Source: Halocafeteria seosinensis
Lineage: Eukaryota; Sar; Bigyra; Bicosoecida
Assembly (NCBI GenBank): GCA_001687465.1
Contig: LVLI01000004.1
Span: 1-46,691 of the forward strand
Direction of reading: 5' to 3'
DNA length: 46,691 bases
Every line of letters begins with the position of its first letter. Position 1 is the stretch's first letter. The translations under genes and the position numbers were made by a program. The notes under the pieces are model-generated. The model saw nothing but the letters and a program-made list of their open reading frames with translations. It was not told the DNA's origin and did no database searches. This document shows positions 8,789-46,691 of this stretch, piece by piece.

Positions 8789-8790
8789 TA

Positions 8791-9173
8791 TGTGCCCAGC
8801 AGCTCAATGACGGTGGTTTCGGCAAGGGAGGAACCACGTCTGTCGGTTCCACGCTTATTCGTCCGAGTCGGCGTCATTCGTCTCCGACGATGTTGTACAA
8901 AGGATTATAGTGGTATAAACGGAGTTAACGAGTTCTCGTGTCACCATTGTGGTCCTCAGAGGTGCAACGGCTCACTTTCATCTTTAAGCGTGCGCTCACT
9001 CGAAACTGTTGTGGATAAGAAAACCGGACGCTTTCCCTCCACAATGTACCGTAAAATGCTTTGCTGTTGAAAATACCGGAAAGCTAAAGTGGTTCGATCG
9101 AAAGACGTTATGGCTCACAGTCATCTATCACCTTTTTGATTAAGTGAAAGCTTCCTGGGAACATGTCTCATAG
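8791..9173. other. Stretch without a supported gene
   Basis: This lies between the right end of the inverted-repeat element and the beta-helix relic. A short + strand frame near 8797-8903 reads a Gly/Ser-rich peptide (QLNDGGFGKGGTTSVGS) but stops quickly and has no start or splice context that I trust. Nothing else is supported here. Confidence 0.5.
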
Positions 9174-19700: not shown

Positions 19701-19970
19701 TTTATGTTGGGTCGTCTGGGAGATTCGTCGCTGTCATTTCCTGTTATTATTTCTGCATTTCGGCGGAAGAGGTTAATGCGTGCATGTTGTGGGGATGCCA
19801 CTGAAGATGAGTTGAAGCAAGTGGAGGAAGAGGTTGCCGATAGACGCGCTGACAAGTTTGCGGCAGACAAGTTCCAGATCCCACAGGGAATCACCATGGG
19901 TCTTGCTGCTGCGAAGAATAACTTGATCCAGTATGCCAACAAACACCAGAGGCCAAAGGAACAAGAGTAG
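16740..19970 (+). CDS. EF-hand protein with long basic disordered N-terminal half
   Basis: Exon 1 is 16740-18451 and exon 2 is 18521-19970, joined in phase 2 across a 69-bp intron, giving 1,053 residues and a TAG stop. The first 570 residues are Arg/Ser/Pro-rich without a recognised fold. Just after the junction, FRWIDADGSGELSVEELTEP contains a canonical EF-hand loop (about residues 600-611, Ca2+ ligands D, D, S, E). A second motif, EIGFSEFVTLL (about 752), keeps the exiting helix of an EF-hand but has no clear loop, and a long low-complexity insert separates the two. The C-terminus is helical and charged (ATEDELKQVEEEVADRRADK). It is likely a calcium-responsive cytoskeletal or scaffold protein; I cannot name an orthologue. 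It ends 56 bp from the convergent gene. Confidence 0.75.
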
Positions 19971-20026
19971 TCGTGAAATCACGCAAACGTTAAAGAAATA
20001 GAAACAAGCACTGATGTCGCTTATTC

Positions 20027-21866: not shown

Positions 21867-22834
21867 CGCCCTCTTTGACTATCTCTTATTCTTGCTTGTA
21901 TCCCTTTTCCTCTGTCTTCCTGTCTGTGTCTTAAAGGGAGGATCTGGCAAACGCTCACTGAGACATGGTCACTCTTTTAGTGAATTTCGCTGCGTTGTGG
22001 CCAGTTTGATATGTTCAAGAGCGCGAATCGGTCGACACTGAACTTAAATCACTTATGGTAATGTGGATCAGTGTCATGTAGTGGCCACATTTGATAGAGC
22101 CCCGAAATGTTCACTCTCGCGCCAAATTACGTCCCCGTTGCTTTGCTACCCCAACTGTGTTGGAAAGAAACTCCCTGAGTTATGAGTCGATCATGAAGAT
22201 TGAACACTCAATTTAGGGCTATATCTACCATATGAACAAATATACTACAAAACTTACTATTGTCGAGATCCATTGAGCGAATCTCGGGAGGAGGCAAATG
22301 GCTATCTGTGAAGTGCAGCACTTAACGGTTGCGGAAGTTGCAAACATGGCCAGTACAGTAGTCGTCGAAACAAATGGAACGAAAGGAATGTTGATAACCG
22401 TACATGATTTATGTTGTTTAAGTGACGAGACGTCTATATGTGCAATGGGAAAGAGTTGAATGAAGCCATGGTCTGAGACAGCCGATGATCTAAGGACCCA
22501 AGCCAATCCAAAGATCCACAGGATCTTCAAGAAGAGGCTTCCGCATTGACTATGCCATTAAGTGCAGTGTCTACTAGAAACCGACAAAATGGAAAGCAAA
22601 ATCGGTACAGGAACACTCCGTCGTCTAAACTGCTCTGCAGGACCTTGTTGCGAGCAACATCTGTCAGATGTTGCTTGAATTGTGGTGATAGACATGATGA
22701 TCTAAGACATCTAGCCACTAGTTCTCAATATGCTTCCATGAGTTGTAGCCGCTACACGCAGGAAGACTAAAGCGGAAGTGGTCTTTTCAAGAGAGATAAT
22801 CTCGTTTGCGGATAGATTGTGGCCGGACATTCTC
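21867..22834. other. Intergenic stretch without a supported gene
   Basis: It contains a 101-codon minus-strand frame (22225-22530, hydrophobic, Cys-rich) and a 74-codon + strand frame (22546-22770) with a CLNCGDRH phrase that only faintly recalls a zinc knuckle. Neither has splice, start-context or family support. I found no repeat or RNA gene here. Confidence 0.45.
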
Positions 22835-23863
22835 TCAACTTCCCAGCCCCATTCCAACGCCACCATTTACCTTTAGTACAGTTCCAGTTACGAAAGACGC
22901 ACTGTTATGCCTATGTTGCCCATCTACTGTGTATGCATATAGTCCCGCTAACCAGCAGATAGCGTCAGAAACCTCATGCGCTTTTGCAGCTCTCTTCAGC
23001 GCTATCTGTTCCGTCATTTTGTCTTGCAGATGCTGCAGCTCTTCTTCATTGTAGTGTCCTTGCAAGCTCTGCGAAAGCATTTCTGTATTAACATGAGAAA
23101 TAAAGTCAACAAGCTCGTTATTTGGCATTTTTCTCAGTCACAAGTCAAGCGATATATTGCCTTCAATCATACCTGTTTCAACTAACCCGGGTTCTACCAG
23201 ATTCACTCTAACCTTCCTCGTAGCCACCTCAGCTGCTACGGATTTGACAAATCCTGAAAGGCCAGATTTCGAGGCTGAATATACGCTCTGTCCTCTGTTT
23301 CCCAAGCTTCCAGCTGCACTCCCCACACATACTATAGAGCCTGCATAGGAGGAAGTCAGGCATTCATGGAGTGTCTCTTCCTAAACTGAGGAGCCTTATA
23401 ACCTTACCTCCTGATTTCTGTCTGATCATCCTTTGCACAGCATGTCTGGTGGAATATATACTTCCGTGAAGATTCACGCGTAAACTGTGCTCAATAGCTT
23501 CATCTGAGCTGCGAAGCAATAACCCATTCGTTGCTTCGCCTGTGGCGAAGAAAAATCCAATGCTTCCGGTAACTTTTGAGGACTCTCACGTATCGCCTTA
23601 CCTGCGCAATGTACGAATGCGTCCAACTGAGGGAAATCGCTCTTGTGTGCCTCGAACACTGATTTTATGCTTTCTGGGTGGGAAACGTCGCATTCCAGGC
23701 CCCGGATCGTCGCATTTTGATGTTCGGATCCCAATTCCTCAGCTACCTGTTGCGCTTTTAAAGCAGATCGAGAGGTCACAGCTACTCTATGACCCAGATG
23801 CAGACACTGCTGAGCCAGAGTACGACCTATACCCTTGGAACCACCTATAATAAGCACATTCAT
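22835..23863 (-). CDS. Short-chain dehydrogenase/reductase (SDR), FabG-like
   Basis: Minus-strand exons are 23863-23602, 23539-23408, 23340-23173 and 23082-22835, all joined in phase 1 across introns of 62, 67 and 90 bp, giving 269 residues, the usual SDR length. The N-terminal NAD(P) motif GGSKGIG is at about 7-13. HCAG (85-88) replaces the common NNAG. The catalytic set is Ser139, Tyr152 and Lys156 (YSASK). EPGLVET and the C-terminal FVTGTVLKVNGG complete a classical SDR fold. Closest in style are 3-oxoacyl-ACP reductases (fatty acid synthesis), but many SDRs share these motifs, so the substrate is open. ATG 23863 is the first ATG and places the Rossmann strand immediately, leaving no room for a long targeting peptide. 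A TTTATAT box about 45 bp upstream could be a TATA element. Confidence 0.9.
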
Positions 23864-24866
23864 GGCCAATAATGCCCCAAGATCCAACTTCACAAGGCAG
23901 AAAATCCATATAAAGGCAGGTCTACACTGCTTCCTTTGTATCCATCACACCATGATATCATCGTATACAATATGCAAAGCGTTGAATATCGGTCAATCCG
24001 GCTGGAAGTGACCAGATTGGCGTATATAGCCCCTCTTTCCCGGTAAGTTGAAGCTGCCACGACTCGCCAACGGCGGCGTTGGCAACTTTCTCGCTTTGCA
24101 AGTTAAATGGGATGCATGCCATTTCCATTTTCACATAGCATCTGGCGGATCCTATTCATTACGGTATGGTGAAAAAAGCTTCTTCATTGGCCTCCGTGGA
24201 GGCCTGAGAGAGGCAAATGACCACAAAGTTCTGTAACGCGACCTGGGCGAGTCAACGTCATTTTGGCTCATTATAGAGCATTTCAAGCTCTCAGGGAACC
24301 CCACATGCTCCCCGAAAGCTGTTTATGTCATTTTCGTGATTGACGCACGCTTGGCTTGAGAGCAATTGCACAGTGCAGGGAAATGCGTCAGCACTGTGCA
24401 ACAGCTCCGCTCACGTTGCGGAGCTTCCTGACCGCGTGCGTCTCAAGTTTATGCCCACTTCACTTCCTTCATGATCGCTTTTCGTTCCTTAAGGATCTAA
24501 ATCGTCGGGTATTGAATAGGTAAAGGGGTTCGTATTTGACAATTGATCGGGACGGAACATAGTGCATGGAGCTTTCACACGTGCCCGCTGGCGACTCATC
24601 AATTAATGGCAGTTGCAAACGCACACACGTTAAGGAAGGTGAGAGCCATCGCATATGGCGCAGAACAATTATTGCATTCACAAGTATTGTAAGTCAACGA
24701 CAAAGGGACAAACTGAAAGAAGAAAAAGACTCTGAATAGTAATATCAAGAGGTGCCTAACTGTAGGGCGTGAACGAGAATAGATCTTGTAGAGCTTAGCT
24801 GCTGTATAAGCACGTCATTTCTGACTCTCTTTTCTAGTGTGACCTTCACATTCTTACAAAGGAGAT
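23864..24866. promoter_or_regulatory. Divergent intergenic kilobase rich in inverted repeats
   Basis: This region separates the SDR gene (-) from the giant gene (+). No coding frame is supported. It contains several short perfect palindromes, for example GCCAACG/CGTTGGC near 24070-24095 and GGCCTCC/GGAGGCC at 24189-24204, and the larger nested structure at 24342-24442. It should hold both promoters. Confidence 0.45.
24342..24442. ncRNA. Nested inverted repeats: candidate structured RNA or regulatory cruciform
   Basis: An outer 9-bp stem (24342-24350 GACGCACGC with 24434-24442) encloses two perfect hairpins side by side. The first is an 11-bp stem, TTGCACAGTGC (24366-24376) with 24391-24401 and a 14-base loop. 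The second is an 8-bp stem, AGCTCCGC (24403-24410) with 24418-24425 and a 7-base loop. Together they form a three-way junction. I do not recognise a known spliceosomal, RNase P or SRP RNA signature. It may instead be a protein-binding regulatory site or a foldback element remnant. Confidence 0.35.
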
Positions 24867-27800
24867 ATGTTGAATAGTTTAAACCATTTTATATTGCTCT
24901 GTCTGGTGGTCACAGCCAGTGTGTACCCTCAGAAACTAAGCAGGGTTCCTGATGTAGCGCATGTTACTTGGAACTTCCAGCGTGATAGCATTTACCCGGA
25001 CTCGCAGTGTGTATTAAACAGCGTTAACTGTTCTATCACTGTTAATTATCATGAAGTACGTAAAAAACCGTTGGCAACGCATGTTAAGCCGTCGACCCGT
25101 TGGTTCTCGCTCTGCAGTTCTTTTCGGACTTCCACTTAAGTCCACGATATAGACAACAGGCACTCCGGGGAACCATTGACTTTGGCGATAGCAGTACTAC
25201 GCTACTGACGTCGTTTAGAACAAGTCATGAAAACATTCCCGGTGCTCGTATATCAGGAAGAGCAAAGCACACGTAAGAAATGTTGCTGCGACCTTGTATA
25301 CGTCGAATGCTGCACGCTATTCCATGTATGCTTGATGCAGATATTCTAATGGTTTCACAGATGAGCCATTCTTAGTATCTGTTCATCCATGTGATGTATC
25401 TAGAAACTTCAGCTCTACCTCAGGGTGCAGAGCTTACCAATTTGCCGTCGACTTATCACTCGCCACGGCGGTTTCTACTCTTCATTTCGGTAAATTCAAT
25501 GCGGTCAACTCGCTTGATGCCGACAGAAGGAAGTCAGCTACTATGGTATCACCTATATTTTCAAATGATGGGAGGCGCTCCATCTTAAATTTACCGGAAT
25601 TTGGCGTTCAAGAATGGCTAGCCCAACTAGGGAACGACTCGTCCTCGGAGCTGGCTATATTCCTTCCTCAGGAGACTAAAATACTTGACTTGGAGAACAG
25701 CCAGCTGCTACCGTTCAGCTTTCATGGAAACGTGTTCATCTTGAGCACTGGAGAGGAGATCTCTGCAGGTTGCAGCCGGTACAAACAATCATTTGCTGCA
25801 TGCGATGTGGGCCCCGAAGGATTGCGCTTGTCCCAAGAGCAGTCTGCTGTCCGACTCAGTATCGAGGGGAGTTCGGGAGCTTATCAGTCTAGCGTTGATC
25901 TCGCGTTGTTTAGTGGGAATGTAGATTTAGGAAACGCAACTACAGAACACTATCCGATAAGCATTCTTAGGTTAAACGTTGAAGAAAATGACATCTTCAC
26001 GGACGCGACTAACGAGTGGACCGTTGACGACTTGTCCTTCGCAAATGAGGATGGAGGAAGTTCCACAAGTTACTCGCATAAGGTGGTAATGCAAGTGAGC
26101 AGTACTGTGGGGCACGATTGCAACACAACAGTGGACAAATTGAACTCGACGTTGCAAATTTGGGCGGATAATACATTTCGCGGAAGTACAGATAAACTCA
26201 CGGAGCTCAACGAGGTAGAAGTAGGACCTTTCATTTTGGCAAGTTGCAAATGTTCATCAAACGGAGGAGCAAAATGCAATTACACGGCATCTGCGTTTAC
26301 ATGGCCAGTAGAGCATGAAGCAATGGATCTTGATGTTTTGCGTAAGGATGCTCTATGCGTTCAAGCAGTTAGAACTGTCCTAAAGAATGAAGAATTGTCA
26401 TCGTGGACCGAAAACTCAATCGCCGCCAGTATTAAGTATGAGCACGCCTCCGAATGTCTTGATTTGCCTCGCACAGTACAAAGACGAGCACAATACAGTG
26501 GGGGAGGTGAACTCTGCGGCTCGATGCCGACACTACTCGGTCTACCAGAGAATGTCACGGAGTTTGCGTCGTCCACAGAAAACGGACAGCCTATCGGAGG
26601 GTACGGCTACTCGGCACAGGTGCCTTTGATGCTTGGGCTGCAATTTAACAGCATCGTCAAGGAAGCAAAGCATCTAGATAATGAGCTTTCAATTCAATCG
26701 TTTTCCTTACTGGTATCTAGTAGCCCCAAAGTTCGAGGAGGAGATACCCCTCCTTCGTTAACCTCGGATAGAATGGCTTTTGCCCCTTCGAAGGCGATAC
26801 TTTCACAATTTTCGAAACAATGCCGTTGTTCTGGCATGAGATGTAAAGTGTGTTTGCGTGTAAGGATCCCTCGGAAAACAGCGGAATTCTTTGACCAGTA
26901 TACCAGCGCATGCTCTTTAGACGGCTGGTGCGATGTCGCCAGCCAAGAAATGCCATCTTGGTCTCTGGATTCAGAGTCTTTATGTAGTAATTGTACGGTG
27001 GTTTATAGCCTGGATTGGAAACATTGTCCCGTGGATAATAGCGTAGTGCTAGAGTTCAATGCTCAGGTCCTCTCTCCTGAGGGTGTGCCGATGACAGAAG
27101 TCAGCTCCACTCTCTCAACGAGCATTTCTCCCACCATACTCCATCATGCTGTCTACGGGTCTTCAACAGGATATAGCGCTGCAATGGCTACTGCAGATGC
27201 CGCATACCCCGCAATACTCATTCAAAGGACGCAGTTTACGCCTGCGGCTAAAATTGGACTCAAGCGCTTTGAAGTGAGCGGAGTAGCTTTATCGCCCAGC
27301 AGAGCTGATACGATAGGCCATTGGAGGCCTTTCTACTCCCAGCAGTTGGTACACGAACCCTTAGTAATCAAATGGAGAATTCCAATTGGAGTTGCTGTGC
27401 ACGGATACTGCACTTCGCAGGATATCTGTCGGCACTTCAGGAAACGAGCTATGGAATTCTTAACTGGGTACTTTGGGATAGAGTTGCGGAAGAACCAAAT
27501 TCGAGGAGACACGGTTACCGAGTCTTTGAACTTGCTTTTAATGGCCAACTCAATTCGCTGTCTGGACGCTTTGTGCTCAACTTCCGCGGTCTTTCTCCCG
27601 TCCCCGAAGATCGTTGTTCAGGGAGCTTGCTCTCTTACGTTTAAAGGAGCAGTGGAGGATACCGACTTTAACCAGCCCGGAGAGTACAGCTTGGAATGGA
27701 TTCCTGGATACACGTCTATTTGCGAAGTGGAAGTTCCACCGAGCGCTGCAGCAGGAACCCTGCAAACTAAGACTGTGTACAAGTTTCCAGTGCATTGCCT

Positions 27801-30800
27801 TGATTATTTGCACGCTGCACAAGCTCATGCTTTTGACGAGATTACTCTTTCGGTAGAGAGCGCCTCCCATGGAACATTATTCCCATCTCACGAAATGTAT
27901 GTGTTAAGTATCCATACAGACGGTTTCAAGAAAGGACAATATGTAGCAGCGCTGGAGTTTCAGTTGCCAGTAAAAAATGCGACATTAATCGCTACAGTGA
28001 ATGGGGTAAACGATATGGTCGCGTTCAATAGCGGGGTATCCCAATCAGAGCGCTTCATTGTCCATGTGAATTGCTCATGTAATGGACAAGCAGTCCCAAA
28101 TGTACTGGAATTGCACAAGCTGGATATTGGGAGCGGAGTGAGGACATTCTCCGGTACTGAGGAGACGGTTGACATCATCGCGACAGATGACGAAATCAGC
28201 TGGGATCTAAGTTTCAGTAGAGGCTTTCAAGGTGTGGACGGTGATTGCGGTATTACCAATTCCTTTGATTTGTTAGTAAAAAGTTTGGAAGCATCTACAG
28301 ACACTTCTGTAACATGCATTCTTAGTTCAACGGGTAGACGATACGTCTGTTCAAACAATGGATTCCATAAAGCCGGTCTCTACATGCTCTCTTCCGAAAG
28401 TGTAACGATTATCTCTCCACGATTGCGGGTAATTCCAGGCGACGTCGACAAAACACATTCTTTCCAGGAGGCTGAATTCTTTGGTATTTCAGAGATGGGA
28501 TATTTGTCAAAGGCTATCTTCTGGTTCAAAGATGGATTTGATAACATTGTGTCCCCTATCTGTAAAGAGGCTAAGCAGTCGATCCTCAACGGAAGCGATG
28601 AGTTTCGAATTTCTGCTGTTTCTCAAGGTGGCAGCGTGGGTGCTGTCTCCATTAGCTCTGGAATACAGCAAGCTTTTGGTAACATAACGAATATATCCCG
28701 TGTGTGTAACTCGAATGGCAGCGTGTCGGCACTTATTACTACTCAGGGGCGAGAATTGCATTCCTTGGATGTTAAACGCGAACACGATAATTTCGCACTA
28801 TTGTCAACCGAAATTGATTTTGCCGTATTAAGCTGCTCCGTCCATCCCGTAGTAACGCTAGAAGAGAGCGAGTTATGCCAAGTTGGGGCTGCATGCAGCA
28901 TACGGTTTTCTATCGCAGATAGATTTGGGAACAATATTCCGAGCGCGTGCTACAACTGGACGGCAGTCGCAAATAGTGGATTCACGGAGACAGCCGTGAT
29001 CACGGGTGTAGATGAGTATATGGTGGAAATTAGCGTCACCGCCAAGCGCAATGTAAATGGGAGCGTGCACATGTTTAGTAAATTCCGGTCAAACACTGAA
29101 GTAGAGTCGCATGGCCCATTCTCTCTTGTAGTCGTACCGAGCAAGACGATTCACGAGTTGGCAGTAAAACGAACCTCCGTAGAGGACCTCACCCCAACTG
29201 CTTCGTGCATACATGGCACTTTGGATGATTGCTACGCTATATCGTTCGACCTTTCAGCGAAGGATAAATTCGGTAACGGTATTTCATGTAGCTATGATTA
29301 TGATATCGTGTGGGATGACGGTATTATCGCTTTTACTGAAGCGACTTCCCCCCAAGGAGCTGACCTGACATTATCGAACGGTGATGGAGTATTTTCTTTA
29401 AGATTCAGGCAGCTTTCCTCAGTAGTCCCCAGGCAAATTGTTCTCAGCTTTCCTGCAACTACCGTACGAGTAAAAGAACCGTTTCGAGCTTTGCACATAC
29501 TAGTAAATAGCTCAAGTTTGGAAACATCGGAAGAAACGCTTTTCACCGGTACGGGGTTGTCCGTCTCCCAGTATGAACTGCCTATCTCAACCCCTTATCA
29601 TGCAAGAACTTTCGGACGGCTACCAAACAATACCTTCTTTGTGGCTGCGAGCTCCTGGGATAGCCGCAACGTTTATAATGCAACAAGCGGTACGTACAAG
29701 CTCATACTATATACAGACGCTAGAGCAGACCAGCCTCCAACAGCTGTGACAACCCTAGAGAGTATGCGTGCGAGTCACATGAGTCAGACATTAGCTGCTG
29801 CTGAAATAAATAGCAATATGGAGTCTTTTAGTATTTCCAAGGATATATGGACGTCCGCTGTGAACCTCGAAACCTCTGTTCCCATGTGTGACGACGGTAC
29901 TTTCCTGGTGACAGCCGAAGGATCGGACCGGCTAGTTAAGGAGTTCGAGCGGGATTTTAGAGCCGTGTGTCTGGATCAACTTGGCGGCATCAGCAATTGC
30001 GTACATCCAATCAACATTAATGTGTCTTCATCAACCGATCAATGTATAGGAACGATGACCGAGTTTCGATCGGTTAAATTTGATTCAACGGAGAGAATTA
30101 ATTCCACTTTGTCAGGGCGTGTTTATCAGACACCTTTAGATGAAGCCTGTGTAGCGCAGACCGTCCAGAGATTACACCAAATGCCCAACGACTTGTCGGT
30201 AGCACTTTACGATCACAGTACGCTTTATGCTTGGAGCAACGTGTCCATATATGTTTGGTCAGATACGGTTGCGGCAAATACATTGAATCAATTTGATGAC
30301 CTGCGAATAGAAGCCGAAGGTGGGAAGGCGAACCTCCCGAGCGTCTGTGCCGCGACGACAACAGACGTCCCGTCACTGACAGAATTGGATAGCTCGTTCA
30401 GCGCTCTGAGTCATTCATTTGATGTTTCTCAATGTAATCAACATGAGCGAGTTGAAATTTCGATAAATGTGTCGTCGTCGGCCGACACGAAAGTCTTCCA
30501 GACTAGCCTGAGAAAACTCCCCGGCCCCGATACAAGTCTACGCGTTCTTCAACAAACTTTATCATTACGGATGAGGACCTTCATTCTTAGCGTGGTTTTT
30601 GACTTTGTGGACCAGCACGGACTTACTCTGTCTCATATAAGCGATCTAACAAGGGTCGATTCTCCTCATTTAGTGCCAATATGCGCCATCTCCCAGGAAT
30701 CCTCCGGGGCATATCATATGTTGTGCCGAGCTCAAACTAACTCTGAGTACCAGCAAGTGTCAATCATAAGTTCATCCCTGGGCCTCACCCTTGTAGAAAG

Positions 30801-33800
30801 TACACACCTGGAGGCTACAATGATCGAGATCGGCGACTATATCAAAACGGGTGACAATACTCTTAGCATTATGACGCAGCCCCTGAACGCGTTCGGCGAA
30901 CCGACACAAGCAAACAGTAGTAGGGCAGGGCTATTGGTCTGCGTCAGCCTTGACGATACGCTTCTTCGTCCCCCCAGTTTTTTAGTTAATGGTTTAGCCT
31001 TGCAGTCTTGCACCTGGATTGCTCCAAGCGAAGCAGTCGAGCGCTCTATGTTCTCTCTAAATACCTCTGTACTGGATTTTCCGAAGAGCTCTACCATTGT
31101 TTCAACGGTTGGAAATGGATTTAAAGCAGTGGTATCTCCTCTCCGTTTCATTACGGAATGCACGCTTACAGAGGCGGAGATAATTGAAACGATAGCTGTT
31201 CAAGCGCTTGTATCCACAATATTCAGAGACAGTATTGTTCAGAGTGCCGTCCTATACCGCGTTGTTTTCCCTCAAGATACGCGTAAGGAATGCCTGAAAC
31301 ATATAGTCTCAGTGATACAGTCTTGGCAGGTCAACTTGTTCGGTAATGACACCGCTCCTTCGTGTGAGCTTCAATGTGCGGAACTGCTGTGCGATATCAT
31401 CTGTAATATTTCGTTGACGTCCACTCTTCGAATCGTGGGCATAGAATTTGTGGATAGCACCGGTAACGAGGATGAGCTGAAACCCATGAACGATACATTT
31501 TCTTTCCTAACTCTGGGACTCCCAAGCAATCGCACCTCGGTATTGAGCACCCCAACCCCAGAATGGGACCCAGGCGAGTTTCACCCAGTTCGTCTTGTAT
31601 TGAAGGATCAAAATGGACTAACAATCGACGAAGAGTTGTTTCGTGGCTCCGACTTTAACACTTGGTGTTTAGTTGTCTATGGAGAAACAGGTGTACGACC
31701 CCTGCGAGTCTACGACATATTCTGCTCGGTGTACCCTCCGTCGCAAATAGTCTTGGATGGAGAAAGCACAAATATTTCCCAAAGTTGGAACTTCGCTGAG
31801 CCGTCAAACTTGGTGGATTTTAGCCTAATGCCTACCGAACTAGTAGCGGGAGGGATTGAGGCGCAGCTGCATTTTGCCGGCCAAGACTTTGCAGGCGACA
31901 ACCAACAAGTGTTCCAAATATCTTGGTTTGAAGGCAGCACCGTCAGCATCAACGTAGGCCCTCCCTATGCGGAAGCAAGTAACATTAGGCTGATTTCCTC
32001 CAGCGGTGAGGCTGCTTCCGATGCACCAGCGCTGTACCTAGCACTCCACGATGCGGGAGGAAACGATATCGTCAATGCAAACTGCTCAAACGCGAAGAAC
32101 TTTGTTTCGGGCACAAGGCTCTTATTTTTTAATCACGATCACGTGTTTCATACATCTTCTTGGCACCTTGCAGACACTGGAGATCGCTTTGAGGCATCTC
32201 TAGAGAAAATTCTTGTATCTGGGACCTACAGCGTGTGGGCAACCTCCAACTTTGGGGAGCTGCTTGGAGAAAGTCTAGGGTCTGCCTCATTAAGCATACG
32301 GGAATTCGAAGTCTCGGGATCAACAAATCCGGGAGACTTCGATGCGAACAGAACGTTCGTCCTGGGTCCACTTCTATCCGGCTTTTTCGAAGGCGATGCA
32401 AACAGAGATTCCATCTATTTGTCAGTTCACGTTTTCGACAAATTTGGGAACATTCCAGGAGAAGGAATTTCTAGGCAAGGCTTTACTCCATGCGTTCTTC
32501 TTGGGACAGCGGTGATTCCCTTCAACGAAAACTCTCACGGAACCGTTGCTGACCTTTTCGGTGTGTTCAAATTTGAGGTTGGTGAGTGGGGCGGGACAGA
32601 TACCGGAAATGTTCAACTGTCAGTGTATTGGCCAACTTGGGATGGCTCCGTGTTTTCATGTCCTTCGGATCTGGACAACTCCTTGCTAGTGGCATCAAAG
32701 GAAATTCACATATCAAGTGCGTCTCCATGGGATGAGCAACTCGAGTCAGTTCCGTCTAGTGCGACAGTCTCTCAAGAAGTTGACATCTTGGTACAAATGG
32801 TAAAGAGCGATAGCTGTGACGACTACGGCTACGGTTACGGGTATGGAGGAGACTGCGGAAATTATGATGACAATGACCCAGACCTTCCTGGGGAACCTTT
32901 GCCAAAATCGATTTTCCAAGTTGAGGCTGTCGTTCCATTACCCGCCGGTAACCCAGCGAGCGGTAGAGAAGGAGCAACTGAGGAGCTCCACCATCAACCA
33001 CTGGAGCAAACTGTGACAAAAAACGGAGATGGAACTTTTACAATTCATGTCCAAATGCCCGGTAACCATGGAGATGACCCGGTAGTCGCAATTAGATTGT
33101 ACAGCATGGGACACAAGATCCAAGATGATGATCCCACTGTCACGCTAGCACCAACTACAGTAGAACCAGCAAATAGCATCGTTCACGGCTCCTTTTATCA
33201 CAGTGACTCCAAATACTGGAAACAATCGCATTCTGCGCTGAGCGCCATATCTAACAGGGAAATGGAACTTACCATCCTATGTAGAGATGAATACGGCAAT
33301 CCGTCATCGTGTGCATCAGCGGATTTTGTAGCAAACGTCACCAAACACTCACAGGAAACAGATTGCGAGGTCGCCCTCTCCCCTAGTGAGACTTCATCAA
33401 ATGAGTTGCTAGTTAAATATCGATGTCTCCTGAGTGAGAGAGTAAACGTTTCTGTTGTGGCCGGAGTGACTGGGCAGCACATAGTCAACTCGCCAATATC
33501 AGTGGACATTATCCCGGGAGCCCCCGCCATACACAAGAGCACCGTCGAGAGTTACACTTCCATTATGACAGCGGGCACATGTGGTACTGCCATAATTCAG
33601 TTAAGGGATGCACACGGAAACCCGCTCAAAAGCTTACCACATACAGATTTGGCCTTTTCGGCAAGGTGGGTGGACGAAAACATTTCCGCAACTTTGTGGG
33701 ATAACCTTGATAACCTCGGCATGAAGAATGCCTACGTTAAGAACGGAAGGGCAAAAATAAGTTTCTGCAGTTTTAATATGAGTCTACAAACTTCCCTGCA

Positions 33801-36800
33801 AAGACTCCAAGTATCTATGGCTAATCCCGAGGAAAGGGAACTTCTAGACCCTGGATCGCTGCCAACAGTATCCGTGACGGCAGGACCAGCCAGTGCTCAA
33901 CATTCCATCGTGACTGTAGAAAACCAGTCGCCTTCTGGGATTGCTTTGATCATTCGGGGGATAGACCGCTTAGGCTATTGGTGTAGGTCGGCAGACGAAT
34001 TAAAAGACTCAGTCAGGATTGTTGTCGTGAGGAATTCTTCTGTATCTACATTAACCGAGGAGACGCGATTTATAGTCGATGCCACCTTATGCCATGTCAG
34101 CGTTTTCCTAAAGCCACAGACGACCGGCCAGTATGTTTTCCAGGTTGCATTTAACGGCGTGCTCGCTCTGAACATTGATGATTCTCCCGTAGTATCGTTC
34201 ATATCTGAAGATGCACCTGCAAGCAACTGTCCAGAGGTGATCGCGGACGGTATCATCGTAGATACCCAGACTGCATCAAAGTTGGGGCCCCGCCCCAATG
34301 AGACAGATCTGTTACAGATAAGATGGGACACAAATGCAAACCTGGGATACTGCATGGAGACTCAATCGTTTCAGTTCGACCAGGCTGTCGTTGAAATGGC
34401 TGATGGAACGCTTGTGAACAGCTCCGTCCACGTGATATCGACATTTAAGTTTAGTGTCTCCGTACCAGTAGGCACAATCTGCGCCGACACGGTTCGAGTT
34501 ATGCTTGGACTCAATGTTGGAGGAACGAAGACTCTCAGAGTAATACCATCGCAATTTTCATTTTGCCAAATCTCTCAAGGCATTCCGGCAGGAAACCATT
34601 CTACTATTGTCGCAGACACGTCATCGGAAGGCTGGCCGCTTGAGCAACCGGTGTCATTAAGCACTTCTTTCATTGACAAGAACGACATTGCTGTTCTCGA
34701 AGAGCTTTTTATTGCCACACCCTCGAACTTTTGGTGTATTAAGATATCTGTCGAGAATGCTCTGGATGTGGTCTGCTCTATGTATCCACCATCCCAGCTG
34801 TTAGGTAATACTCAAGAAACTGGCGTTTCTTTCTCATCAGCGAATTCGACGAATCTTACATTGACAACAGACATTGTACTCTTTGTTCCGGCAAGCACTG
34901 ACTATCAGCAAGGGCAGCCGTTAACGGCGGAATTACTCCTCGGCAATTCGGACGATTTCAGTCAACATACTACGCATGCAATCGAATGGAATCCCCACCC
35001 GAAATCAATTTTCCATGACATACCCACGCAACGTAGCACGCTGTCCGTCTCGGCTTTCACCGCAGAGGTTGGCCGAACAGATGTTCTTGTTTATGCAACA
35101 TTAAGGGATTGGAGTGGAACGCCAATCGTTGACCAGAACGCATCAGGTTTTCTCCAAGGCGTAGACGTAATTGCAGTGAGGGATGATGGGGCACAATTCT
35201 CGCTGCCGTTGGAGTTCTCTCAGAGCAACGGTAGATATGAGGCGTCTTTGCAACCCCTTAAAAGATCAGGAACTTATGTGTTTTGGACAGCTCTCGATGA
35301 TGGGTTCATATTGGCTGGGCAACCAAGCATTGAACTAGTAGGGATTAAGCAAAGGAGCGAGGCTTCGAAAGATGCGACGCAGTTCTTTGGCACGCTTCTC
35401 TCCGGCTACCAAACAGATCATTTGACGCACGAATTAATTGTCAAGCTCTTCGACGTATTTGGAAACATTCCGGGGAGCGTCGTTGAGCAGTTTCACCCTT
35501 GCGTCACGCTAGGACAAGATGTTGTTCCATTATTTGGTGACGTTTCATTCACTGAGGTAACGCATAACGCTGAGTATTCCTTCCAAATGGATAAGGAAAT
35601 TGGGGCAAGCGCAGGAGTATTGGACTTGCTTGTATACTGGCCTAACGTGAGCGAAGCAGGAGACTATTCGTGTCCCGTGGATGTGGCTGAATATTACAGC
35701 TTGGAAAAAGTTTTTGAAAAGCAGATACTTTTTGACCCCGAGCCCTCATTTTCTCCGGAAAGTACTCAGATAGTCTCTCTGGATGGTGAAGGCTCCACAG
35801 GAACGTTCTACATTGTCTTGCAGCTACGCGATGTAGCCGATGAGGACGTGCTCACTGACGAAGGGGCCCCTGCTGAGATATTCCATCTTGAGGGTCTTCT
35901 TCCTGACGCCCCAGATGGGAGACAACTTGTACAGGTGTCACCGTTAGGGGAATACGTTGGGGAGGGGAGGTACAACATATCATTTTCCATTGAGAAGCAT
36001 CTGAATGAAGAAATCCAATTGTATATCTACTGTCTGGGAGTGTCGGTGGAGCAATCGCCAGCGACTATATCATTAACAAAAGGAGCAGTTTTTCCCTCTA
36101 TGTCTTATATTGAGGGAGTGTTCACCGACTTCCTTTTTCCCTACCAGGCGGAGAGAGCCAGTTGGCTGCGGGACTATTCGACGCTAGTGGCTGAATCAGT
36201 GCAAAAGATGACTCTTAAGATCAAATGCAGAGACGAGTTTGGTAACGCGGCGTCTTGCGAGACCTCAGACGTAGTAATATCTTATGTGCCTGTAAAGGGA
36301 GATTCCGGATGCCGCACTAGTTCTGTATCGAAGGATAGTTCTGGGGATTTCGAGGAGATCACAATACTTTACATATGTGATTATACTGGACACACAAACG
36401 TGTCCGTTCAAGATCCTGCGGGGAATCATTATGGCAATTCACCGTTATTTATCCGCACGCGCCCAGGAAATCCTCTATCGATACCGGATCTAGATCCACC
36501 GTTCTTCTCTACACTGCTTGAGTATGATAGTTCGCTCACAATTGGCACATGCGGAGTTGGGAAAATCCAACTGCAGGACCTGAAGGGCAACAATTTAACG
36601 TCATTTCCATATGAAGATCAACGATCAGCTTCTCTTCTCTTTGAGCCTGTTTGGTCAGAACTTCCGGGAGCTACAGCAAACGGACTCTCAGCTGCCCCTT
36701 GGTTGGAATCCTATCCATACAGTCAGGGATATATAGGGAACGGTCGAATCCAGTTTAGATATTGCAATTTCGAGCAAGATTTGGATTTGTCGAAAACTTA

Positions 36801-39800
36801 CGCTCTCCAGGTTAGAATTAGTCTTACTCCAAACGTTCCTCTCCTTGAAACCGAGCCCCAGATCGCGATTCGACCGGGACCTGCCCACTATTCGCGTATT
36901 GAAACCATGGTTTCAAGCAACGGATCTCATCTAATTCTGGAACTCACTGGAAGGGATCGGCTAGGATACATCTGCCGCTCCGGAGCAGAGCTGGCTGAGC
37001 ATACTTCCTGTCGAATATTATACGATGACTCTGTCATTCATTTGGACAGCGAGATAGAGAGTGAGGAAAGAAGTATCGAAGACGAACTATGCAGTCTAAC
37101 AGTGGCTATCAAACCGTCAATTCCAGGCCCTTTTCGTCTTGAGGTACAACTTGCAGGACATTCTGTCCTAGCTTTTGCGGAGAGTCCAATTGTGCATGTC
37201 GGGAATCCAGCCAGTCCTACCACTTCATATTTACTTGCTCCAACTACCATCGGAAACATTCTTGAGGAATCATGTACGGATGTCCGCTTGTTAGATGAGA
37301 ATGGTTTGCCTGGAGTGGTATTAGAAAGTTCGTCATTGAGATTTCATGTGTCACATGTAGTCGAGCAGGAAGGACAAAGGGTTGAGAACGGAACTGTCAA
37401 TACCACGTCCAAGGTGGGTACCGTCTCTACGTGTTTCACTCCTCAAAACACGGGAATGTATGTCATTAGTGCCACCCTTGATGGAATTACTATCCCAACC
37501 TCCGCCGTAGGATACTCGGAAGAGATCAAGGAAATAGTTCCCGCATTGGAAGAGCATCACTTGCCACTACTAGTTGAAAGCAAGTGCTCCGTTCTTTGGA
37601 ATGTTTCGGAGATATCGTCGAACCCTGAGATTGTTTCGGAGCCAGATTCGTTTAAGAAGCAGTTTTTCACGAGGAATCAAACGACTAATCTAGCCTCAGT
37701 GATTTTGTACCTCCAGCTGATCGATGTATGCGGCGCGAGCAAGCTGCTCAGCGATGTGACCGAAGATGTAAACGCTTCGCTAGTAATGTCTTCGGGATCT
37801 CCATTGCAATCATTTTCTGTTTTCGACGCGTGCACTCAGTGGGGGAAGGAGTGGATCCGGTGCACGGTGGAGCTAAGTCACAGCAATGAGTCTCTGCAGA
37901 TAGGAGTGGAAATTGACGGCAATCAATTGGATGGCATTCTCGAATACGCAGAAATACCACCTGAGGTAATCTCCCTGAAGATGCTTTCTGGATCGAGTTC
38001 TCATTTCGTCAATATCACGTCTTCTGTGCGATTCTTATGGGTCTTTGACGATGGCACGGAAGGTGCCTGCTTCCACTGCAAAGTTCCGCCACAGATGTGG
38101 TTAACGCCAAAGGAAGAAGATGCCGATAGCAGTCAAATCTTTGCACCTGTAGAGATGGCAGATGATGGGTTCCTCGATGTCACCCTACGGTCTGCCAAGG
38201 TAGGGACCTTCTACATCGAGGCGACCATAGAGACAGGAACCCTCAGTAACCTAACGGAAGTTTCTTTCAGCAACGTAGACTGTGATTTAGACAAAACCTT
38301 TGCAGCGGGACAAGGGTTGATCCAGGCTTCCAGTTTTGGGCAAAGTGACGACAAGAACGAATTCAAAGTGTATTTCCAATCAAATTCGAGCATTCTCTCC
38401 GGATCGGAATGTGACTTGTCCTTCTCGGACGTCAAGGAGCGTGTTTGTGTCCTAATTGCCAACGCAACGAGCAAGGAGGTAAGTCTCTCAAGTTGTAATA
38501 GCTCGGCACTAGTTGCTATTGCATCGCAGAGTACCCTAGATATTTCTCCCGAGGAAGTTGGCTCGCTGGAGGTCAATGCTACATTGGGAACGCGGGAGGG
38601 TGGCATGGCTGCATCGTTTAGCTACTCTTCCAACACATTGAAGAAGGGAGGGTACTTCATTTCGCTATGGTTCCTTCGCCCGTTGGAGACTGAATGGAGA
38701 CCGATCACAGTTCTCCATCCGAGTTATCAGTTCGTGCCCGAGACGGATAGTGCAGTTTTGGCCGTTCAAAGTGGCTGTCCGATTCTCCAAGACTCCACAA
38801 TCAAAAGTGATTCTCCTGTGTCAAAGCCGGGCTTCATTATTGTCGATTCTACAAGGAACGTCCCCGTAGAGATTGTACTCCGCGATGGACACGGGCAGAG
38901 CGCTCCTCCATGTGGTGAGCAGAAGGCAAAGCCACTGCTCTTGCTGCACGTACACTGTACAGGCACCACGTCGGTTGGATACCCACGAGACCATGAATCA
39001 TTTTCGGGAGTTGTTAATGTACCATCGAGCTGCAATAACACCAAGCTAAGCGTCTGGTTTATGGGCTTGAACGAATCATTTAATCAAAGCAGCTGGACAC
39101 TCTCCGGAGATTCTGGCGAATTTTACGTGCTTACTGCCTCGAGTTCTACGTCATTTGAAGAATTTGTTACTCAGGGACTCGAAACAGGCTTCAGAGTGCC
39201 TACTGAAAAGATAGTCTTCCGGGCTCGAGAGGACACGCACACTCTTCAGAATGAAGACGACGAACTGGAAGTAATCTGGTGCTTGGTGGAGGCACCGGAT
39301 TTTCTGATTCAGAATGAAAGTAGGGAAGCTGAAAAAATCATCGCCATCGTCACGGCTGAGGTTACAGGTTACGAAACATTCTTGTCTGTCAGAACCATGG
39401 AAAACACGGGAAAATGTTCCACCTCATACGACACAAATGGCATAACTGATGTGGCGGTCAGAATCAACGCTACCTTCTTCGAACCCGAAACGTACATCAT
39501 CAATTTAAGCTATGAGAGCTTGCCAATAAGTCGAAAGTCTGAGTTACTCATACCGGAACGAAAGGTGAACTTATCAAATTCACTTTTGCAATTCGAGAAG
39601 AATGCTGTGGCGTACGATAGACTCCTGAATGTTTCTCTGACCCCGCGAGACCGAAAGGGATATCCGTCTTCATCACTGGAACAGAACACACTATGCTTGA
39701 GGCTTAACTTCACTGGAATCGACGGAGCCTTCTCGCAAGTTGTATACAGCAACTACACAAAGACCCAGATTACTGATTGTACCGATGCTACCTGTCTTGC

Positions 39801-42800
39801 CCGTTTTGACGCTCCGGCAATAGGAGTGTTTGATAGCACAGCGGAGTTACGGATGACAGACAGCAGTGCTGCCTGCGATTTGCTACATGAATTCGACGAA
39901 ACGAAAGACTTAGACCGACTCCACATTCTCCCCCCAGCAGAGCTTCCGGAATTAGAAGTATCCTTGAGTACTTCAGAGGCTGAAATTGCGGATCTCTTTG
40001 AAGTCACTGTCGGACAGCCAGCAAACTGGTTTCACTTCCCAGTTCTCACAACTGACGATTGCTTCAAAATGTTGGCTTCGGGAGCAGATGTCAAAAATGT
40101 AACGCAACCGGCAAGCCTGGCTGCAAAGTGCCAAGTGGTAATGCAAGTCACGAACAGCACAATGGAAGATACGTCTGAGGTCAAGATAACTACTACAGAT
40201 GAAGCGTTTGCATACACGCGTACTCTCGCCACCGAGAAGACTTCCGAAATTGACAAACTCGTCGTAGAAACACAGTCTATCAACGATCTGAATGAAACAG
40301 AAATAAGTTTCCAGCTTCTGGACAGATTTGGAAATTCTATTGCATGCTCAGACGGGGTCAGGAAGTGGTTTAGTTTAGGAGGACGATCAGGAGATTCAGA
40401 TGATGATATGATAACCAGTTCTTGCAATACAGCGACAGTAAACTCGACATTCTGCTCAGGATACGACCTAGCGATTGCACAAGGATATAAGACTTGGAGA
40501 TTTTCGCCACTCACAGTTGCAAAACCGTTGCAGTTAAACGGATCAAAATTTACATTGAACCAACTGAGTATGGGATCCGCTTCGGTAATCACAGAGTTGA
40601 CGAATGAGTCCGTACCGACGTTGCAAGCAGAGCTCAATTCCGTCACCGACGCAGAGATTGAATTTTTTTTCGAAGGAGACGTCACATGTGACAGTAACAT
40701 ACCGAAGAGTTTGCAGCTAGCGTTTGATCCGGTTGTATGCTCCTCCGGCCAGGCTTCGACGAACTGGGTCTCTTTTGTTGACTCCAACCTTCAGCCACAA
40801 TCCGAGTTACTAGAAGCGTGTGAAGAGCTCGTCATCGATGCAACGCTCGAATTGGTGGGGCCTGGGCGTTTGTACAAGGCAGTTGGGATCTCTCTGGAGG
40901 AATTGACCGCGAATACCTACACAGTCTCCACTGAAGTTGGAGGGGTCAATCGCACATTGCTGTACCTGACTTTGACAAATACCTCTGGTATCACGGCTGA
41001 CAGTATTAACACCCTGATGGTTCATCCCTTAGCAACAGAAGTTGATAGGTCGGAAATGAGCATTAGTATACCGGATCCGGCGACTACTCACTTTGAAGCA
41101 TCACTTCCGAATGCTCTCGGCTCTATCGTGAAAAGCGTAGAAACGGAGCTGATATGCGAAACTGAAATATCCGATCGAGTTTCCGCAGCATTGTCCTCTC
41201 CGACCACACTGTCTATCCAGGTCGATCGCCCCGATAACGCTTCGGAGTGCGATTTGTCCCTATCCCACAGTGGTACACTGATCGGTAAATTCTTGCTTAT
41301 TTTTCCCGAGGACATCAGCAGCGTCCGCGAGAGTGATTTTTCATTAAACGATAGTGGAAGGGTTATGCCGGGTTATGACACTCACGTAAGGGTAAAGAGA
41401 ATCCCAACTGAAGACTTTATGTTAGCAGCAACAGCACTTGAGGATACATTGGAGCAAGCTCTACCGTACAACGTAGAGGAAACATTTAGTGCAAGTAGCT
41501 TCAAACTCAGTATTCCAGTGCCGCTTGAGTTTTCCGATCGGATTACTTTCAGCGAGATTCGGAAACTCACCAAAACCGCCAACGAGACCGCCAGCGTACC
41601 GATATACCTCGACATGGATTCATCGACCATGGTGTATACGCTGTCAGCTGCTGCAAGAGACACATTTGACATCAAAGGGGCTCAAATCGACGCTCTTCAC
41701 ATCCGAAAAGAGACAGCCATCGACGCACATGATACAGATTACAGTCTCAAGTCTGTTGGTCCCTATTGTGGAGCTGCGGCTCCGATTGCGTGTCCTGACG
41801 GTTCCTGTGTTAAAGAAGGCGAGATATGCTCAAACGGTCTGAACTCTACTCAATGCTCCCGAGGGGATAAAATGCTTTGCCTTGCCACTGGAGGATGCTT
41901 ATCATCATCTGATTTCAACAACTGCCCGTGCCTAAACGACGGTACTCTAGTCCGCAGTGGCGATGGAGTTTGTCGATTGGACACACCGGAAATAAAGCGG
42001 ATCGGCAGTATCAGAAACTGTCCTAGAGGTCTTGGGCTATGCGACGATGGAGTTACATGCGCATGGCTATCGGATGTAGAGAAAATGTGTCCAGCCATGG
42101 TAGAAGAGTCAACTTTGGACGAGAACACTGTACGCAAGTCGTTAAATGGTACTCACTCAGGGCAGCCATCATTAGTGAATACAGTGACTTTATCTCGAGG
42201 GTCAATATGCCCACCAGGGTCACCAATTCTTTGCGCCGGTGGAAGTTGTGTGTCAGACTCCAAACATTGTTCGCACACTTTCGCAGGTAGTTGCCACTCG
42301 AATTCGTCGAATCTTGAACTAGCGACTTGCCTTGATGGGACTTGTAGGCAATCGGTAGACGACTGCCCTGAGTCAAACGGAGCCAACCTTGCAGTCAATG
42401 CCAAGGACATAACTGTATGCCCACAGTCTTACGTCCAATGCGCAGGCAGTAACGGTGTCGTAAGTTGTCGAAGGAACATTGACACCACTCACACGGACGT
42501 TACTAACCCTTGCATAGGCAACGAAGTAGAAATTGGCATCTCCAAGGCGTACGTAGTAGGCTCGACCACGTCTGATGAAGATGAAATGATACGTGCCACA
42601 TGTCCATCTCACAAAACTGAATGCCCTGGAAACGGAGCATGTGTTGATTCACCCTGGCATTGTAACACTCAGCCTAGCTGCCCTGATGAGCTACCATTCT
42701 ACTGCCCTGAGATGAATCGCTGTGTTCGGAACGTCGGACTCTGCGAAGCTATACTTCCAGTTTCAAGCGCATGCGGCGAAGGATGGATGCCGTGTCCTCT

Positions 42801-45800
42801 GGCAAGCGGACAAGCATCCGGAGTTTGTATTCCTGTTGAGCAAATTGATTCCTTAAGGGAGTTTCACTCAATTTGCAAATCGCTTGAAACAGCGGCTGGG
42901 CTTTACTCAACATGCCCTATCAATGCGCCAACACGATGTGCGGATGGGAACTGTGCACCCTCTAAGAGCGACTGCCACGGCTATGGAGACTTAGGAGACA
43001 AAGTGGAAGTTCAGTTATCGTGCCCCCCAGAGTTACCCGAAAAGTGCAAAGACGGAACATGCATGAAGTACCGACAACAATGTCTCTATCAACAGGCAGT
43101 CGATCGACAGTGTCCGAGATCACGTCCTTTCCAATGCAGACATGGAGGTTGTGTTCAAACCTCCGAAGACTGCCCGTCGTTTACCGATCAAGTAACGATA
43201 TGTGCCCCTGAGGAGGCCAAATGTCCATCTGGACGATGCATTCAAGATACAAGCTGGTGTGGATCTGGTCACAACGATGTAACCATGATGATTCTCTACG
43301 GCTGGATCAGTACCGATGATTTGGAGTCTCTTAAAATGCATAAAGATTTACTCAATATTCTCAATGAGCATCCTACCACCGAAACGCTCCTAATAGGAAA
43401 GGAAGCCCAGCGAGACGAGACGTCCATATTTTTGCCATATCTTCACGGCACAGAAGTATGCCGCTCCAGTAAATTTCCTCATAGGTGTGAATCCGGAATG
43501 TGCGTTCAAGGCCCTTCAGATTGTCCAACGTATCTTCTTTGCCCAATAGACACACCTGTACGGTGCTCGGATTTTAGTTGTGGCCACTCGTACCACGATT
43601 GCATCAGCAGGACCCAGACCGCGTTGCAAGATGGATATTCATCTTGGAAGAGGTACATCTATCATGAAACTGTCTGCCATCCGAAACTACCAATCAAATG
43701 CTGGGATGGAAGTTGTCATGCCCACCCCAATGACTGCCCTGTGTATCCGAGTTCAGGATGTTCGTGGAGGTGTAAAAGCGGAGGGCTATGTGTCGACGAT
43801 GCATCTCAATGTGTAACCGATGTCTTCGACGGAGCTCAGCTGAATTCATCAAGTCGCAGCAATTTGGCAATTACTGATGTAGTCGAATGCCCTGCAGATA
43901 CTCCGGTCTTGTGTGTAGACGGATCCTGCCAAAAAACCGCAAACAAGTGCCCTGACCTCTTTACGTGCCCTATCGGGACCGAGCAATGTGTGGATGGTTC
44001 TTGTACCATCCCTGGCGAATGTGAGGACGTCGCGTCGACCGATGAACTCGAGTGCCCCAAAGAAACTAGCTACAGGTGCACTAATGGGGGCTGCGCAGTT
44101 GATGCGGTGGCATGTAACGCAAGCGTATGCACGGCTGCTAATCCAGTGCGATGTGATGACGGACTTTGCGTGAAACATAGGTCTTACTGTGGTTCTAATG
44201 GGTTCCTATCAAGTGTACAGCAACTCATGTCAAAAACTGTTTGCAATGGTTCCTTGAGTAAGCTTTGCGCAGACGGCCAATGTGCTGACTCCGAATTATC
44301 ATGTACCTTCATTGATTCGTCTAGAAGGAAGGCTCTTGACTACCCCTGCCCCTCAGCTCTTCCACATCGTTGTTCTTCTGGAGAGTGTACACTGTCCGCA
44401 GGGACGTGTAGAAATAGCTCCACGGGTTGCCCAGCAGAATTACCTGAGCGATGCGAAAAGACAGGTGAATGCCTTAGCAAAATTACTGAGGATAATTGCC
44501 AGACAACGAAGAGTATAGAGTGTCCTAAGAGCAAACCATTTCGGTGCCATGACGCATCATGCAGCAGAGATACAGATGACTGCCCAAGTGTTACTCCACT
44601 CTCCTTTTTCTCCAAAGAGGCCATACCAAGCCTAGCAGCAGACAAGATCTCGGTCTTTAACTCCTCGGAGTCGATGTCCGATTCGGTGGAATGCCCGTCA
44701 GGCGCGACAACACTCACTGGAACCCAGTGTGGCAATCCATCACTCAGGCTTCCTAAAGTCAGTGCTTCCGAGACCGAGCCAATAAACGACTTCTCACTGG
44801 CACGCGAAGTTTGCAATAGTGGTCCTCATCGAGATCCGAGAAGCAAGACCACACATCGCTGTTTTGATGGCCGCTGCGAGCGATCCGCCCGGCTATGTCC
44901 TGCTCATATCGCACTGCGCAATACGTCCCTTCATCTTCAGTCAAGGATATACATTAATGAAGACAGGGCAAAATTAGTCAATTGGAGGGCATCCAGACTC
45001 GAAATAAATTCCTCTCGGTTCCGGGAACAACTCGCCGACGAGATTCCTCAATGCACTTCGGACAAACCGGTGCTTTGCCAAACACTGCAGAGCGACAGCA
45101 GTGCTGTGAACATTACAGGTATCGAATCAATTGACAAGTGGCTTTCTGGCTCGTCTTATACCTGCACAATCTCCATTGAACGATGCGTATGCGGGACAGA
45201 TGCAAGCTTGTGCACCGATGGTAGTTGTGCGCCATCGATGACTCAGTGCGACGTTGTGGACCAAGGTTGTGGGATCATGCAGAAACGATGTGCGGACGGT
45301 ACATGCTTAGATCTACGCCAGTCATGTACAGAAGAAATGCTAAGCCTTTCTGCTGCCTCCGAACGCGATCCACTGTATGTGTTTTCCAATTCATCTGTGG
45401 AAACGGTTCAGTGTCCCGACAGCAACTTATTCAGGTGGACGGACGGTTTATGCAGAAACACAAAGCAGGTATTTGACGCGTACTGTGACGCACTTGGAGC
45501 TATAAATTGCCCATCCGGCAAATGCATTCAACATTGGAAACAAATGGCCATCGACAGTATCATAGCTGAGTGTCGCGAAGACTGCCGCAACTCAACTATC
45601 CAGTGTTGGTCCGGCAAATGTGTAGAGGACTACAACTTTCTAGAGCAGTCTTTCAAATGCCCACGTTGCTCTCACGGTTGCGGGGAAGATATAGCACCAA
45701 GTTTAAAATTGGAGCGATCCCGAATGTCGTTCAAACTCGCACATATTGTCAAACAACGTGACGGACATATCACGACGTTTTCTCGCCAACAACTAGTTCG

Positions 45801-46691
45801 CGAGCAGCTCTTTTCGAATCCCATCAAAGCCGAGCAAATAGGAATAATCATACAGATCCATGAATCTACGGAGCTTAATCTCGTCGATGGAATATTAGCC
45901 AACGACCACTATATCCCACTAGTACAACTGAGCACGCGGCCAACGGAGCGAAGCAACAACGACGCAGAAGCAGCGAATATGCCACTGCAAATTTCTCTGC
46001 AGATGGCACACACATCTCAAAACTATACCCATGAGGGCCCGACAACCTGCGTACAAATAAACTCTACTCATTTCGAAAAGTCAACGCCTGCAACGAGACG
46101 ACCTAAGCTCGCCTTTAGCAAGCCACTGATCCTGAAACTACCCAGAGACGCGACGGATACAACGTCAAACGAGACATGCCTAGCGACTTGGGACAACGCA
46201 TGCAAGGTATGGCAGTGTATCACCCCCGATGAGTCAATTACTGCACTAAGGAGTCTCGAGGTATCCAGCAAAGAAGCGTACCAAACAATGCACTTCAACA
46301 GTTTAAGAGACGGGGACGAAGTCACAGTATCGACGGTAAACACCGATGAAACCTTTACAATCACCACACAAACAAACCCAAGTCCCTCACCCACACCGAC
46401 AACCACATCAACAGCAACACCAACAGCTACCCAAACCGCTAGCATCACACCATCAAATACAATGACCCAAACCCCTACCTCCAGTCTTACTGAAACTCCG
46501 ACATCAAGTCAAACGGCGTCGAATACCATGACTGGAACACCCAGTGTCACAGAAACTCCCACATCCAGTCAAACAGCTTCCAATACAAGGACCCAAACCC
46601 CTACCTCCAGTCTTACTGAAACTCCGACATCAAGTCNAACGGCGTCGAATACCATGACTGGAACACCCAGTGTCACAGAAACTCCCACATC
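24867..46691 (+). CDS. Giant secreted or surface protein with filamin/Ig-like modules, Cys-rich repeats and Thr/Ser-rich repeats (3' partial)
   Basis: Exons are 24867-25055, 25118-25272 and 25341 to the window edge, across introns of 62 and 68 bp. The third exon stays open for more than 21.3 kb, giving about 7,230 residues with no stop seen. Residues 1-20 (LNHFILLCLVVTAS) are a signal peptide. Beta-rich modules follow with the filamin/Ig-like phrase D-x-F/Y/H-G-N, for example near 28915, 29265, 32431, 33280, 33610, 35455, 36232 and 40325. N-glycosylation sites are very frequent. A 3-kb segment is tandemly duplicated (31561-37200). From about 41761 come Cys-rich C-x-D/G-G-x-C repeats, then a mucin-like Thr/Ser/Pro tail. 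It resembles an adhesin or cell-wall protein. Its C-terminus is unseen; a membrane anchor is possible. I do not recognise an orthologue. Confidence 0.85.
31561..34230 (+). repeat. Internal tandem duplication, copy 1
   Basis: Landmarks in order are EELF (31630), NxWCL, CSVYPPSQ (31726), GTYSVW (32221), FDKFGNIPG (32437), CRDEYGN (33277), TAGTCGTAIIQL (33570) and DRLGYWC (33964). The same order recurs about 3.0 kb downstream at the protein level, with strong divergence, so the duplication is old. Confidence 0.75.
34631..37200 (+). repeat. Internal tandem duplication, copy 2
   Basis: Matching landmarks are EELF (34699), NFWCI, CSMYPPSQ (34774), GTYVFW (35270), FDVFGNIPG (35450), CRDEFGN (36226), TIGTCGVGKIQL (36538) and DRLGYIC (36955). 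Offsets from copy 1 are 2,970-3,070 bp. Confidence 0.75.
41761..45660 (+). repeat. Array of about 28 short Cys-rich repeats (C-x-D/G-G-x-C type)
   Basis: Each unit follows roughly C-P-x(4-7)-C-x-D-G-x-C-x(5-8)-C. The central box varies: CPDGSC, CAGGSC, CLDGTC, CADGNC, CKDGTC, CRHGGC, CPSGRC, CESGMC, CWDGSC, CVDGSC, CTNGGC, CDDGLC, CADGQC, CSSGEC, CFDGRC, CTDGSC, CADGTC, CPSGKC, CWSGKC. Spacing is irregular, with longer non-Cys inserts near 43270-43450 and 44600-45160. Paired Cys suggests small disulfide-stabilised extracellular modules, as in other protist surface proteins. Confidence 0.75.
46455..46691 (+). repeat. 126-bp tandem repeat encoding Thr/Ser/Pro-rich sequence
   Basis: The sequence from 46464 recurs at 46590 with near identity and a 126-bp period (42 codons). 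Each unit is two related sub-blocks starting TPTSSQTASNT. The encoded sequence is mucin-like, likely an O-glycosylated stalk. The array continues past the window edge. The ambiguous base at 46637 falls where the previous unit has A. Confidence 0.9.

Follow-up and report, generated by a model that had tools for sequence, protein, structure and literature searches.

Two anciently diverged versions of a giant Ig-type open reading frame in the bicosoecid Halocafeteria seosinensis

The DNA analysed here (the window) is the complete contig LVLI01000004.1 of Halocafeteria seosinensis, 46,691 bp long and called C3 below, within an assembly of 605 contigs and 30.6 Mb. From position 24867 to its right end C3 carries, on the forward strand, the open frame of a giant gene for an immunoglobulin (Ig)-type protein, and a separate contig, C561, carries a second version of this frame that is identical to C3 at both ends and diverged in the middle to the point at which synonymous sites are at or near saturation. 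Two ancient versions of the gene certainly exist as sequence. We propose, with what we judge to be an even chance of being right, that the gene encodes an extracellular recognition or adhesion protein, and that its two ancient ectodomain versions, most simply alleles, have been under long-term balancing selection.

A second version of the frame

C561 (11,645 bp) aligns along its whole length with C3 27141-38821 (+). It is open from end to end in the matching frame, and its 3,881 codons are colinear with C3 residues 534-4426 (residues are counted from the ATG at 25543). Read along the gene, the two contigs do not differ at all in the leftmost 246 bp and the rightmost 148 bp of C561, and from either end divergence rises gradually inward over 2.5-3 kb. 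This trend was seen both at codon positions 1+2 (Spearman correlation of divergence with position 0.975 left, -0.95 right) and at fourfold sites (0.85 left, -0.95 right). In the core, at 30304-36207 (+), amino-acid identity falls to 30-59% per 150 codons (27-64% per 100 codons), with a proportion of synonymous differences (pS) of 0.74-0.93.

Altogether 3,910 of the 11,613 aligned nucleotides differ, and C561 contains no stop, compared with the ~119 expected from equally many random differences (minimum 95 in 200 draws). The differences number 1135, 831 and 1944 at codon positions 1, 2 and 3, and the ratio of nonsynonymous to synonymous divergence (dN/dS) was 0.07-0.38 in those 150-codon windows where dS could be estimated. 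Between residues 1284 and 3555 the versions have kept 95% of the Cys, which may form disulphides, and 89% of the Trp, compared with 46% of all residues. The tandem pair of ~1,000-residue modules is present in both versions, indicating that this duplication predates their split, and the versions agree in codon usage and GC, which argues against a foreign contaminant.

Structure of the gene

Since a second, colinear open version lies on a separate contig, we are nearly certain that the giant Ig-type frame is a real gene. The model starts at the ATG at 24867. Exon 1 (24867-25055, +) opens with a hydrophobic stretch that resembles a signal peptide when judged by eye, and is followed by intron 1 (25056-25117, +; 62 bp, GTACGT..CTGCAG), exon 2 (25118-25272, +; from splice-site enumeration), intron 2 (25273-25340, +; 68 bp, GTAAGA..GATGCAG) and exon 3 (25341-46691, +), which runs for 21,351 bp without a stop up to the contig end. 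Both introns are the closest to consensus among several options; when the splice sites between the frames were enumerated, 96 combinations proved to leave the frame open, so the exact intron borders are provisional. The spliced coding sequence comprises 7,231 codons up to base 46,691. Over 24867-46691 the five competing frames contain 425, 356, 208, 374 and 335 stops and the gene frame 11, all of them upstream of 25543.

These figures agree with an earlier note on this DNA, which had described one exon open for more than 21 kb after two short introns, and a frame of over 7,200 codons continuing to the window edge. Because that edge is also the contig edge, the gene is truncated by the assembly. 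A single N occurs at 46637, within the terminal repeat of C3, and a search of the assembly for the 3' continuation with two terminal-repeat patterns matched C3 only, so the 3' end was not located. The earlier remark that few proteins of this size are known outside animals was too strong: Apilactobacillus surface proteins span 3,000-8,000 amino acids (PMC12863079) and Plasmodium Pf332 is a protein of ~700 kDa (PMC2680261).

The earlier note had also named the error that would undo its claim, namely that the assembly has fused separate genes into one long frame. This is very improbable, as 3,881 codons of the frame recur, in order and free of stops, on the independent contig C561, which largely answers the concern. 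What speaks for an artefact is that C3 stops in a tandem repeat containing an N, so that at least this end was hard to assemble, and the case against it is limited by the part of C3 to the right of 38821, which lacks an independent copy such as C561.

Alleles or paralogues

The simplest reading of C3 and C561 is that they are two ancient alleles of one gene, and we consider this probable. In protein searches of the assembly, residues 1-1000 and 2701-3700 matched C3 and C561 only, and residues 5401-6816 matched C3 only. At the DNA level 19900-27140 matched C3 only, and for 36000-46450 C561 was the sole match listed, the C3 self match being absent from the listing. Since the rest of the gene behaves as single-copy in these searches and C3 is unbroken at the sites where a repeat present at two loci should branch, an assembly bubble between two haplotypes is favoured.

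C561 might instead be a paralogue at another locus, its ends homogenised by gene conversion and its middle diverged for different adhesive specificities, a scenario that we regard as unlikely but as deserving real weight. Besides the missing breaks in C3, what speaks against it is that neither the 5' part nor residues 5401-6816 had a match on a further contig, and that discrete conversion tracts would be less likely to leave gradual slopes on both sides that run out into exact identity. Several points nevertheless keep allelism from being certain. Contigs below ~10 kb have apparently been filtered out of the assembly (the smallest of 27 sized was 10,213 bp), so the flanks of a paralogue may be missing. 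The neighbouring giant gene (1-4587) has several copies of its own (C154 at 86%, C94 and C343). Second copies are also frequent on small contigs: when pieces from 14 of 20 sampled small contigs were searched (13 of ~200 nt and one of 57 nt), seven, from C600, C460, C530, C520, C480, C560 and C555, had other copies at best 83-98% identical, among which repeats and haplotigs are not separable. Moreover, the assembly search scores the best candidates only, which limits certainty on single copy. The copy number of 38822-41742 was read solely from the 36000-46450 DNA search, and this search and the window DNA searches behind the lists of neighbour copies omitted the self match; as these lists are incomplete, absences from them weigh less. 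A control assembly search with the 8.5-kb stretch around the HAP2 gene (see below) returned no second copy. Allelism remains the reading we prefer; if the two versions were paralogues, they would still clearly illustrate how a giant adhesin-like protein diversifies while its Cys and Trp are strongly constrained.

Domain organisation

The modular zoning proposed in the earlier note was borne out. Module A (residues 1974-2895; 31462-34227, +) gives a filamin-type Ig-like signal, and module B (residues 2993-3895; 34519-37227, +) is its tandem duplicate, 29% identical; together they form a pair of ~1,000 residues each, with putative filamin/invasin-type Ig-like domains. The profile matches fall below the Pfam gathering cut-offs: the Filamin repeat (PF00630) reached at best 25.2 bits (cut-off 26.9), and the GEX2 N-terminal Ig domain (PF23616) 23.4 bits (cut-off 27), the latter matching two of the four module sequences at E<=0.5. 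In a structure model of a two-domain piece (36094-36885, +), the first domain is predicted to resemble filamin/invasin-type Ig-like repeats; a model of module A had a predicted local distance difference test score (pLDDT) of 45 and was not used further. No match to the actin-binding CH domain was obtained at E<=0.1 in eight overlapping pieces covering 25543-46689, and with filamins and bacterial intimin/invasin-type adhesins the protein has the domain type alone in common.

Further downstream lies a Cys-rich zone (41791-45690, +), in which the pattern C-x(1,3)-G-x-C matches 24 times and residues 5400-6720 include 132 Cys. It is weakly LDL receptor class A (LDLa)-like (PF00057, 16.9 bits, under the cut-off of 24.1); its repeats look four-Cys by eye and the LDLa repeat has six Cys. 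C3 then ends within a Ser/Thr/Pro-rich tandem repeat (46456-46691, +) with units of 60, 66 and 126 bp. A hydropathy scan of 7,049 residues found no 19-residue window above 1.7. We consider it likely that the protein sits at the cell surface. The giant surface protein with a signal peptide of the earlier note is thus confirmed as a giant frame, its surface position being likely and its signal peptide being the hydrophobic start recognised by eye. On our proposal it would be a giant secreted or membrane-anchored glycoprotein. Behind a signal peptide, an extended rod would be built from Ig-like domains of the filamin/invasin type that carry Cys, the tandem duplication among them; the Cys-rich repeat zone would follow, and after it a mucin-like stalk, with a membrane anchor expected past the end of C3.

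Searches of the protein collection returned no significant relative: 753 candidates were scored for residues 1-5000 (none at E<=1e-3), 750 for residues 2140-2860 (none at E<=1) and 7,992 for an alignment of four modules (none at E<=1). These searches require shared exact words and similar length, and distant relatives may therefore escape them. No relative was seen in the viral contig collection with 36208-38820, the only query used there. The PDB sequence search with residues 2020-3686 gave one row at chance level, and the two-domain profile gave seven weak rows, the best an adhesin chain (E 0.005), with Filamin-B at E 0.26. Among the best matches listed from the open-licence PMC literature, none described such a gene.

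A possible role in recognition

A diverged middle that fades into identical ends is a pattern expected of self/non-self or mate-matching genes, and an exon whose versions pass from identical to saturated and back to identical would mark its own specificity region. To our knowledge, the mate- or kin-recognition molecules of protists are known in few lineages. In the proposed scheme, balancing selection acting at the middle of the rod would keep the versions apart and recombination would homogenise the ends, so that the rod middle, carried on a shared stalk, would set the specificity with which cells recognise each other, be it as gametes or mates or as self or non-self. A recognition role is our best inference for the C3 gene, and one that we would back and doubt in equal measure. 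Self-recognition was originally a guess of the earlier note, to which the diverged second version now lends indirect support.

The protein could also be a structural cell-covering or feeding adhesin without a recognition role, the second version coming from a second strain or a hybrid parent in the culture. Nothing here ties the C3 gene to mating, and structural surface proteins, too, can combine Ig-like rods with Cys-rich and mucin-like zones. However, so distant a strain or parent should show genome-wide, and neither the 8.5 kb around HAP2 nor 19900-27140 showed a second copy, making this explanation improbable.

As to the biological setting, HAP2-GCS1 is encoded at C217:89347-90904 (L031) in four exon pieces parted by short gaps, three of the four over the cut-off (best 106.8 bits), and the same profile had matches in none of 14 control genomes. 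One exon piece matched six HAP2 sequences in PDB, the best rows being 6dbs, 6e18 and 5mf1, which we take to be Chlamydomonas HAP2. Because the genome encodes HAP2-GCS1, gametes probably fuse; and because the chlorophyll-binding family had no match in the genome search, the organism is probably heterotrophic. A bolder version of our proposal, which we hold to be doubtful, is that this one giant gene alone is a mating-type or allorecognition determinant, with two or many ancient ectodomain alleles that differ chiefly within the central ~6 kb of the 21-kb exon and share their flanks by recombination, and that it would act in recognition before HAP2-driven gamete fusion in a probably heterotrophic sexual protist.

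Polymorphic self/non-self recognition systems include Hydractinia Alr, Dictyostelium TgrB1/TgrC1 and Botryllus fuhc. The Dictyostelium pair consists of membrane proteins that are polymorphic (PMC11088635), and the Botryllus locus is highly polymorphic (PMC3691228); likened by description, the C3 protein shares with all of these a surface-type character and strongly differing versions. Fungal het genes and the mat locus have ancient balanced alleles whose deep divergence is confined to one gene (PMC11138114), as we read it for C3 and C561, but the edge of divergence there is abrupt, whereas here it is a slope of 2.5-3 kb per side within one exon. Chlamydomonas FUS1, an Ig-domain protein resembling plant GEX2, mediates gamete adhesion before HAP2 acts, and is an 823-amino-acid glycoprotein that bears seven Ig-like domains and a single transmembrane helix (PMC8777248). 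The C3 protein resembles GEX2/FUS1 in its secreted-type N-terminus, its Ig-like domains and its weak GEX2_N match; it differs in being about nine times longer and in having the Cys-rich zone, the mucin-like repeat and two diverged versions, the Pfam cut-off was unmet, and no overall similarity was found. The Apilactobacillus proteins are comparable in size and extracellular role, but they are bacterial, have beta-solenoid heads and diversify mostly by short intragenic recombination (PMC12863079).

Neighbouring features

Another giant gene of surface type has its 3' part at the left end of the window (1-4587, +), with EGF-like and TSP1-like matches under the Pfam cut-offs and, by eye, hydrophobic segments in its product. 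Related sequences are placed close to or right at the ends of several contigs, namely C343, C154 (1707-6003, 86% over 4.3 kb) and the end of C94; the first 10 kb of C343 contain frames of 1,504, 750 and 1,128 amino acids. An element of ~1.38 kb occupies 7416-8791. Its two ends (7418-7450 and 8759-8791) match each other in opposite orientation, and it has copies on C64 and C61 at 94-95% and a partial one on C232 at 97%; with no internal frame much above 150 amino acids, it looks like a non-autonomous DNA transposon. A sequence family of ~720 bp is represented at 9311-10033, with 17 matches listed across the assembly at 67-72% identity. Three neighbouring frames, at 5801-6607 (+), 18513-19970 (+) and 23474-23944 (-), between them show ankyrin repeats, a weakly matching EF-hand and a short-chain dehydrogenase. 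Elsewhere in the assembly, a sampled 400-bp piece, C440:5000-5399 (L056), has 29% GC compared with 45-50% in the window, and is perhaps organellar or foreign.
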